Source: Planctomycetota bacterium
GTDB lineage: Bacteria > Planctomycetota > JACOTG01
Length of the DNA: 64,000 nucleotides
Reading direction: 5' to 3'
NCBI GenBank assembly: GCA_016178505.1
Contig: JACOTG010000052.1
Coordinates: forward strand, 1-64,000
Every line of letters starts with the position of its first letter. Position 1 is the stretch's first letter. The translations under genes and the position numbers were made by a program. The notes beneath the pieces were generated by a model. The model was given only the letters and a program-made list of their open reading frames with translations. It made no database searches and was not told the origin of the DNA. Below, piece by piece: positions 50,278 through 53,843 of the stretch.

Positions 50278-51420
50278 TCAGCGGATGAATGCCTCGATGA
50301 CCGAGTTCGCGACGCGACGTCCGGCGTCGGTGAGAGCAATGCGATCGCCGTCGGCGGAAAGAAGTCCGGCGTTCATGAAGCCGACGATTTCCTCTGCAAA
50401 GCGCTCGGCGATATCGATGCCGAACCGTGCGCGGAGGTCGGTTCGCGATACGCCACGCTCGAGGCGAAGCCCGAGCATGAGTGACTCCCCAAGGCAGGCA
50501 TCGGCCTGAAGCGCCTCCTCGAAGACGACCGCGTGGCCGCTTTCCCGAACCGCGGCCACGTACTTGCGCCACTCGGCGACGTTTCTCCGGCGTACGCCGT
50601 TCTCATAGGAGACGGCGGACGGCCCGACGCCGACGTACTCGGCGTTGTTCCAGTAGACGAGATTGTGGCGACACTCGCGGCCCGGCCGCGCGAAGTTCGA
50701 GATCTCGTAGGGCGCGTAACCGGCCGCGCTGAGTGTCGCGCGCGTCGAGTCGAACATTTCGCACCACGTCGATTCGTCCAGCTCGCAAAGCACGCCGTCG
50801 CGATGGAGGCGCCCAAACTCCGTGCCGGGTTCGATGGTGAGACCGTATGCCGAAACGTGATCGGGCGCGAGCGCAATCGCCTCGCGCAAATCCGCGGCCC
50901 ACTCGTTGGGCGTCTCTCCCGGCACGCCGAACATGAGATCGAGGTTGACGTCGTTGCAGCCTTCCTCGCGCAGCGAGTCGACGGCACGCCGCGCGTCATC
51001 TGCGTCGTGTGCGCGCCCGAGAAACGCGAGCTTCGCCGAACGAAACGATTGCACGCCGACGCTGAATCGCGTCGCACCAGCGCCACGCCACAGACGCACC
51101 TTTTCAACGTTCACGCTCTCGGGATTCGACTCGACGGTGAATTCGCGAATCACGGTGAAGTCGATGTGGTCGTGGAGGGCGGAAAGAAAGCGCTCCGTCT
51201 GCGGAATGGAAAGGAACGAAGGCGTGCCTCCGCCGACGAAGATCGTCTCTGGTCGTAGGCCGTGCGCGCGTGATGCCAGTTCCCGCTCGAACGCACCGAG
51301 GAACTCGTCGATGGGCTCGCCGCGTTCGACCACGGAGTAGAAGTCGCAGTACGGGCATTTCACGACGCAGAACGGGAGATGAACGTAGAACGCCCGGGGG
51401 CGTGGGCCGACGCCGGTCAA
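50278..51420 (-). CDS. hemW: HemW-like radical SAM protein
   Basis: [20 protein letters not shown] (CxxxCxxC), [23 protein letters not shown]. Confidence 0.9.
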
Positions 51421-52235
51421 TCCTCGTCGTCGCGGCTCAGGATCGCGTGGAGTTTCCGTAGTGCTTCGTTCTCGATTTGTCGCACGCGCTCGCGCGTGAG
51501 GTGGACGTGCACGCCGATTTCTTTCAACGTCATCGGATCGTGCTCGCCGATGCCGTAGCGCATCTTCAGGATCGTCGCCTCTCGTTCGTCGATGGCGCCG
51601 AGAAGTTTCTCGAGCTGCTCGATCTCGAAGGCGTCGAAAACCGTTTCGTCCGGTCGCTTCACGGCGGGCGCTTCGATCGCTTCATTCGAAGCGAAGACAG
51701 AGTCGAGGCTGACGACTTGTGATGCTCCGTTCGACGCGCGAATCGCACGCTTGATGATGCGGACGCTTTCGCGCGGAATGTCCATTTCGGCGGCAACTTC
51801 TTGGACAGTGGGTTGGCGGGCGAGTCGGTACTGCAATTCCATCGCGACGTTCTTCCATCGCGCGATGAGCTCGACCATGTACGACGGAATCCGAACCGTT
51901 TTCACGGTGTTGATGAGCGCGCGACGAATCGATTGCTTGATCCACCACGTCGCGTACGTCGAGAACCGGCACTCAGCGTCGGGGTCGAATCGCTCGACGG
52001 CTTTCAACAATCCCAGATTGCCCTCTTCGATGAGATCGAGAAACGAGAGTCCGCGATTGACGTAGTTGCGGGCGATGGCAACGACGAGGCGCAGGTTTGC
52101 ACGAATCATGCGCTCGCGCGCGGCCAAATCGCCTTTGCGAATCGCGCGGGCCAATTCCTTCTCCTGGTCCGCCGTGAGGAGGGCGACTTTGTTGATGTCG
52201 TTCAGATAAGTCTCGAGAGCCGATTCGCGAGCGAT
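51417..52235 (-). CDS. Sigma-70 family RNA polymerase sigma factor (regions 1.2-4), probable ATC start
   Basis: ALETYLNDINKVALLTADQEKELARAIRKGD...STYATWWIKQSIRRAL...LTRERVRQIENEALRKL; AAGGAGG 8 nt before ATC at 52235..52233. Confidence 0.9.
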   Translation of the reverse strand: MARESALETYLNDINKVALLTADQEKELARAIRKGDLAARERMIRANLRLVVAIARNYVNRGLSFLDLIEEGNLGLLKAVERFDPDAECRFSTYATWWIKQSIRRALINTVKTVRIPSYMVELIARWKNVAMELQYRLARQPTVQEVAAEMDIPRESVRIIKRAIRASNGASQVVSLDSVFASNEAIEAPAVKRPDETVFDAFEIEQLEKLLGAIDEREATILKMRYGIGEHDPMTLKEIGVHVHLTRERVRQIENEALRKLHAILSRDDED

Positions 52236-52300
52236 GGTCGAGTCCTCCTTGCGCTTGCACTCGTCACGTCTGGGCTCAGATCGTGCAGAAGCGATCGGCG

Positions 52301-52330
52301 AGTATAGGGCCGTTCGCCACACGGTGTCAA
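52301..52330 (-). promoter_or_regulatory. Near-consensus sigma-70 promoter for the sigma factor gene
   Basis: Minus strand TTGACA (52330..52325) - 18 nt - TATACT (52306..52301). Confidence 0.7.
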
Positions 52331-52439
52331 ACAGCACCGTCCGCCCGAGCCCGGGCGCGGAGCGCGGGATCTCCGGCGATGGAACTTATCGGTCGTTCGA
52401 GCGAAAAGGATTAGCGGGAACTGGATCGGAAGCGGGTGT

Positions 52440-53843
52440 TCAGAATGCGTTCTTGTGGACGAACCCCCGAAGAAACGTCAGCAGCATGATGCGAAAGTCG
52501 AACCCGAGCGACCAATTTTCGATGTAGTAGAGATCGTATTGAAGGCGCTTTCGCAACGACGTGTCGCCGCGCCAGCCGTTCACTTGCGCCCAACCCGTGA
52601 TTCCCGCCTTGACGTGATGGCGAAGCATGTAGCGCGGAAGCGAGTTCTTGAAGTCCTCGATGAAAACGGGACGCTCGGGCCGCGGACCGACGATGCTCAT
52701 CTCCCCTTTCAACACGTTGAAGAACTGAGGGATTTCGTCGAGGCTCGTTCGACGGAGGAAGCGCCCGATCGGCGTCGCGCGCGGATCGTCACGTCGGGCG
52801 AAAGTCGCGCCGGTCTCACTCTCGGCGTCGGAGAGCATCGTGCGAAACTTGAAGATCCGGAACACGTGCCCATCGATGCCGACGCGCTCCTGGCGATAAA
52901 AGACCGGGCCCGGGCTGGTCGACCGAACGATGATGGCGATGACCGCGAGCAGAGGCGAGATCACGATCAAGACGATAAGCGAAAGGACGACGTCGATCGA
53001 TCGTTTCAGTACCCGCTGCCAGCCGTAATACGGGCTCTCCTGAAGCGTGAAAACGGGCAATCCGTCGAACACCGCGACGCGCGCACGGAGCGTCACGAGC
53101 CCAAAGAAGTCGGGCACGAGCTTCACGTCGACACATTCCTGCGACAGGGACTTGATCAGCGGCTCCATCGTGCTGACCTGATCGAGCGACAGGGCAAAGT
53201 AAACCTGATCAATTTGTCCGGTTTTCACGAGGCTCAGCAGCTCGTCTGCGCGACCGATCACCGGAACTCCGCGGATGACGCGTCCGATCCGCTCCGGTCG
53301 GTCGTCGAGGAACCCGACGAGGTGGATTCCAGTCCACGGATTGTTCTGCAACGTTTCCGCGATGTTCTGGCCGAGCTTCCCGGCGCTGACGATGATCGCG
53401 TGTCGCAGATTCCAGCCCTTTTGCCGCATCTCTCGAAGGCAAAGGCGAATCGCGGAGCGCGCGAGACCGAGGAAGAGGACGTTGAACAGCAACCAGAAAA
53501 GAAGCACGGTGCGCGAGTACTCGTATCGGCGGAAGAAGAACGTTGTGGCGGCAAGGGCCATCGCGGCCAGAAGCGTGGCTTTGACGATGTCGAGCCACTC
53601 CCCTGCCAGAGTTCCCGCGCGGCGTGGCACGTAGAGTCGGCAAAGATGGTAGCAGACCATGCAGATCACGAGCGCGACGGGGAGAACCGTTACATACTCG
53701 CGACCATCGGGGAGTCCTTTCAGCAGTGGAACCAGTACTGCGGCGAATCGAAGGTCGTATGCGACGGAAAACGCGGCCGCCGTCATGGCGCAATCCATGA
53801 CGAGGCACAACGTCACCATGAGCTGGCTGTGTTTCTTGAGCAC
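52440..53843 (-). CDS. Polyprenyl-phosphate glycosylphosphotransferase (WcaJ/WbaP-like)
   Basis: Four to five TM helices, CoA-binding-like domain, KRSIDVVLSLIVLIVISPLL...VFRIFKFRTM...RRTSLDEIPQFFNVLKGEMSIVGPRP. Confidence 0.93.
   Translation of the reverse strand: MLKKHSQLMVTLCLVMDCAMTAAAFSVAYDLRFAAVLVPLLKGLPDGREYVTVLPVALVICMVCYHLCRLYVPRRAGTLAGEWLDIVKATLLAAMALAATTFFFRRYEYSRTVLLFWLLFNVLFLGLARSAIRLCLREMRQKGWNLRHAIIVSAGKLGQNIAETLQNNPWTGIHLVGFLDDRPERIGRVIRGVPVIGRADELLSLVKTGQIDQVYFALSLDQVSTMEPLIKSLSQECVDVKLVPDFFGLVTLRARVAVFDGLPVFTLQESPYYGWQRVLKRSIDVVLSLIVLIVISPLLAVIAIIVRSTSPGPVFYRQERVGIDGHVFRIFKFRTMLSDAESETGATFARRDDPRATPIGRFLRRTSLDEIPQFFNVLKGEMSIVGPRPERPVFIEDFKNSLPRYMLRHHVKAGITGWAQVNGWRGDTSLRKRLQYDLYYIENWSLGFDFRIMLLTFLRGFVHKNAF

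Follow-up and report, generated by a model that had tools for sequence, protein, structure and literature searches.

To our knowledge, natural non-canonical start codons are known for just a handful of bacterial genes. The classic IF3-controlled example is infC, which encodes IF3 itself and is autoregulated. Where codon and anticodon pair weakly, as in AUU/CAU, IF3 reduces initiation in vitro (PMC10158994), and a demonstrated precedent among sigma factors is sigR of Streptomyces, which starts with GTC and is repressed by IF3 (PMC5472188). In Staphylococcus, two further genes with a strong Shine-Dalgarno (SD) sequence, cvfC1 (AUU) and ccpN (AUA), are expressed at roughly 10–30% of the level given by AUG (PMC13009471).

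The gene described here lies in a 64,000-nucleotide stretch (henceforth the window) of contig JACOTG010000052.1 from the Planctomycetota assembly GCA_016178505.1. It occupies positions 51417..52235 of the minus strand, runs from ATC to TGA and encodes a sigma-70 factor of 272 aa, in which sigma regions 1.2, 2, 3 and 4 all gave Pfam matches above cut-offs and to which SigA and RpoS come closest among solved structures. Its nearest named homologues are from Planctomycetota too, the phylum to which the relatives of this genome also belong. Region 1.2 (Pfam PF00140, residues 6–38; 52122..52220, minus), a part of the protein that contacts promoter DNA, starts five codons past the ATC. As expected of a group 2 sigma factor, the protein combines these four regions with the lack of region 1.1, beginning only five residues before region 1.2, and is distinct from the primary sigma of the same genome, RpoD, a separate 570-codon open frame. 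Since the cut-offs of both NCBIfam RpoS equivalogs were missed (NF004207, 254 vs 394 bits; TIGR02394, 250 vs 378.7), we call it group 2-type and RpoS-like in architecture, but not RpoS.

The sigma gene is flanked by genes for a WcaJ-type sugar transferase (52440–53843) and hemW (50278–51420). The latter likely starts at a TTG that overlaps the sigma stop codon (ATTGA, window 51417–51420), an arrangement that suggests translational coupling of hemW to the sigma gene; hemW follows the sigma gene in 31 loci. Neighbours differ by lineage, the sugar transferase and hemW being common to many lineages, and no anti-sigma partner gene was recognised among the common ones. In Brocadiales (L069, L076, L077, L082–L084) the sigma gene comes about 30–45 nt after a putative rpsA (ribosomal protein S1) and is followed by a putative apt, both names being our reading of the protein sequences.

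The initial annotation had proposed that translation begins at the ATC (52233..52235, minus) behind a perfect SD. Letters and coordinates were as described: AAGGAGG (52244..52250, minus; duplex −11.4 kcal/mol) stands 8 nt 5′ of the ATC, and the codons after it encode Ala-Arg-Glu-Ser-Ala-Leu-Glu. The promoter named there was recovered too by a consensus scan, with a −35 element TTGACA (52325..52330, minus) and a −10 element TATACT (52301..52306, minus) separated by a spacer of 18 and 11/12 consensus matches. Within 3.5 kb no other site of this kind occurs (0.7 in shuffled sequence), and the promoter would place the transcript start near 52294, with a predicted 5′ UTR of about 60 nt. The same simple scan did not find this promoter in the two closest (same-order) relatives. 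It is a minor point, and the argument about the start codon is independent of it.

That argument is comparative. Homologues were gathered from whole-genome searches, a scan of GTDB contigs and fetched stretches; each was anchored on the conserved ALETYL core and its codons were read back to the in-frame stop, giving 178 distinct planctomycete homologues, among which Brocadiaceae are over-represented. Seventy-eight of them have no in-frame ATG, GTG or TTG within 18 codons of the core; for 46 this holds all the way to the in-frame stop, and for the other 32 within the 18 codons. Of these 78 genes, 77 carry a near-cognate codon at codon −3 to −7 together with an SD pairing at −5.5 kcal/mol or stronger (28 ACG, 26 ATC, 20 ATT, 2 CTG and 1 ATA). 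Repeated in the two other frames, the count came to 30/78 and 3/78, and in a first sample of 52 the true frame gave 51 vs 14 and 3; since one frame-shifted control reached 30/78, the count by itself is suggestive of near-cognate initiation but does not decide the matter. Automatic start calls are heuristic and a few are ambiguous (L047, L145, L051); a distant homologue, L088, was not accounted for. The trait is not universal, as about half of the homologues start with canonical codons. Whether orthologues carry ATG at the same column was a check put forward by the initial annotation: many have ATC, ATT, ATA or ACG there, and in some ATG takes the place of these codons (L310, where its family has ACG; L152 and L267, where L129 and L137 have ATT), an exchange that speaks for the proposal.

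The substitution pattern points to the same codon. When related non-canonical genes were compared in 260 pairs, mismatches at positions 1, 2 and 3 of the start codon were 0.00, 0.08 and 0.40, the first base being invariant in close pairs. Mismatch in the same pairs is flat from 20 to 7 codons upstream (0.70, 0.69, 0.71) and periodic in the core (0.20, 0.11, 0.42), so that coding begins at the near-cognate codon. Codon choice is also unlike that of ordinary isoleucine: ATT accounts for 20 of 49 ATH starts, where the Ile usage of those genes predicts 4.3.

Judged by sequence, the clearest case of a non-canonical start is the anammox family Brocadiaceae. Of 30 distinct genes (L282–L311), 28 have ACG at the start column, although it makes up just 26% of the Thr codons in the family's genes; Brocadia and Kuenenia records (L077, L082, L084) belong to this family. 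No canonical codon occurs back to a stop in 26 of the 30, and in L308 an in-frame TAG lies immediately 5′ of the ACG. L310, from one genus, has ATG in the family's ACG column, and L309 has GCG there, with an ATG in frame a few codons before it. Scalindua (L076) also has an ACG start. Our literature search, which covered few subscription journals, found neither a bacterial precedent for a family-wide ACG start nor an earlier report on planctomycete or anammox sigma starts.

Other genes of these genomes start in the usual way. Among 30 of them, rpsL was found 29 times and always starts with ATG, GTG or TTG; rpsG, rplT and rpmI showed canonical starts on inspection, and the RpoD of the window genome starts with ATG. 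The infC gene of that genome (L144, G000:C194, about 1491) has ATT behind AGGAGG, and many other planctomycetes have ATT, ATC, ATA or ACG at infC. An in-frame TAA is found three codons before the ATT of the window genome.

Non-canonical starts go with stronger SD sequences. The median of the strongest upstream SD, measured independently of the start call, is −9.3 in non-canonical vs −5.95 in ATG genes (p = 1.4e-7), and phylogenetically independent pairs agreed with this on average 8.5 times vs 0.3 opposite. A general link of weak starts with strong SD sequences, in the same direction, has been described (PMC5622118). A quick tree built from 142 proteins, with changes counted without direction, shows 25 switches from one class of start (canonical or non-canonical) to the other vs a mean of 46.9 for shuffled labels, so that the trait is clustered and yet has switched many times.

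Taken with these independent lines (homologue codons, SD and substitution pattern), the ATC is very probably the start site of the sigma gene, as first proposed. The ordinary initiator tRNA would read it as formyl-Met, the strong and well-spaced SD compensating for the weak codon. The codon itself varies among lineages, with ATC, ATT or ATA in many, ACG in Brocadiales and CTG in one small clade; there are repeated switches to and from canonical starts, and genes that start with ATG have a weaker SD. Two features of the IF3-responsive class are found here, a near-cognate start with no usable canonical alternative and a strong, well-spaced SD (the −11.4 kcal/mol of the window, plus the group medians). 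By analogy with infC, sigR and cvfC1/ccpN, start-codon discrimination may keep this sigma scarce: the near-cognate codon would hold its synthesis to a fraction of ATG output and make it dependent on initiation stringency, most likely through IF3, as with infC of these genomes. The sigma level would then track the amount of IF3 relative to initiating ribosomes, not transcription alone. The near-cognate start with its compensating SD is conserved across the phylum, old and widespread in Planctomycetota; that it limits sigma output and makes it stringency-dependent we consider likely. That IF3 is the controlling factor has, from the known systems, about an even chance; control by IF3 that ties transcription to initiation fidelity, as the initial annotation had imagined, is plausible on the model of Streptomyces sigR. 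A broader view, in which the start codon has been kept and re-invented as a phylum-wide translational switch placing a global sigma under IF3 or fidelity control, with ACG a conserved natural start in anammox bacteria, we hold tentatively, at a little under even chances.

A serious competitor, to which we would give somewhat less than an even chance, accepts the weak codon as real but has it fix a constant low level of sigma, with no variation by IF3 or any other signal. The strong SD does resemble compensation for yield, and the many codon switches, with weaker SD beside ATG, look as if output were being held level. However, non-canonical codons have been kept over deep time though one substitution restores ATG, which hints that the weak codon is itself useful, and infC has the same codon class. 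A start at an upstream GTG on a longer transcript, with the ATC an ordinary isoleucine codon, is very unlikely. Two GTGs are indeed in frame, within a frame open for 55 codons, and they are the only upstream canonical codons, as had been noted; one (52335..52337, minus) lies upstream of the −35 element and the other (52320..52322, minus) within the promoter spacer. But SD pairing is weak at both (−5.2 and −3.0 kcal/mol, respectively, vs −11.4 at the ATC), neither is seen at that place in the two same-order relatives, 46 of the 178 homologues offer no canonical codon at all back to an in-frame stop, the region upstream lacks coding periodicity, and the codons at the start site depart from ordinary Ile and Thr usage. 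We regard as similarly improbable an internal start giving a sigma that lacks region 1.2, at TTG (52152..52154, minus; residue 28), the first canonical codon downstream, or at ATG 52109 (residue 43), the next. Such a start is what annotation pipelines would probably pick, and a moderate SD-like sequence (−7.4 kcal/mol) precedes the TTG. Yet that sequence encodes conserved residues, TTG occurs at the residue-28 site in just 2 of 78 homologues, L076 has no downstream canonical codon until 114 codons into the core, and region 1.2, under strong constraint at the protein level, spans residues 6–38 and would therefore be destroyed or deleted. Programmed frameshifting or reinitiation from an upstream ORF that is shorter and in a different frame is barely credible: about half of the homologues have an alternative-frame canonical codon with an ORF overlapping the start, but such ORFs are no commoner than in canonical-start genes (0.53 vs 0.50; with SD, 0.13 vs 0.10) and the two candidates in the window have no SD (−1.9). 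A base miscall is excluded by the recurrence of the same codon class across many independent assemblies and, for the ACG group, because several Brocadiaceae genomes are single contigs; C-to-U editing of ACG cannot account for ATC, ATT or ATA, and no support for it was found.

Near-cognate initiation at the ATC would have practical consequences, as gene callers limited to ATG, GTG and TTG would truncate region 1.2 in many planctomycete genomes. The non-canonical start here belongs to a sigma factor, extends over a phylum and takes in an ACG shared by a whole family, and with this gene one can test directly whether cells use initiation stringency as an input to regulation. With Streptomyces sigR it shares a sigma factor product, a single non-canonical start and a strong, conserved SD. 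However, sigR encodes an ECF sigma paired with the anti-sigma RsrA, whereas the planctomycete protein is a four-region, group 2-type sigma with no such partner recognised beside it; the sigR codons are GTC and GTT, confined to Streptomyces in that study (PMC5472188), in contrast to ATC, ATT, ATA and ACG across the phylum. The likeness to cvfC1 and ccpN lies in a conserved non-canonical codon with an extended SD, mapped experimentally in Staphylococcus; those are other genes, from Bacillota, and ACG is not among their codons in the available portion of the source (PMC13009471). With infC the sigma gene shares the codon class (AUU/AUC/AUA) and the strong SD, but infC is autoregulated, while any effect of IF3 on the planctomycete sigma would act in trans.
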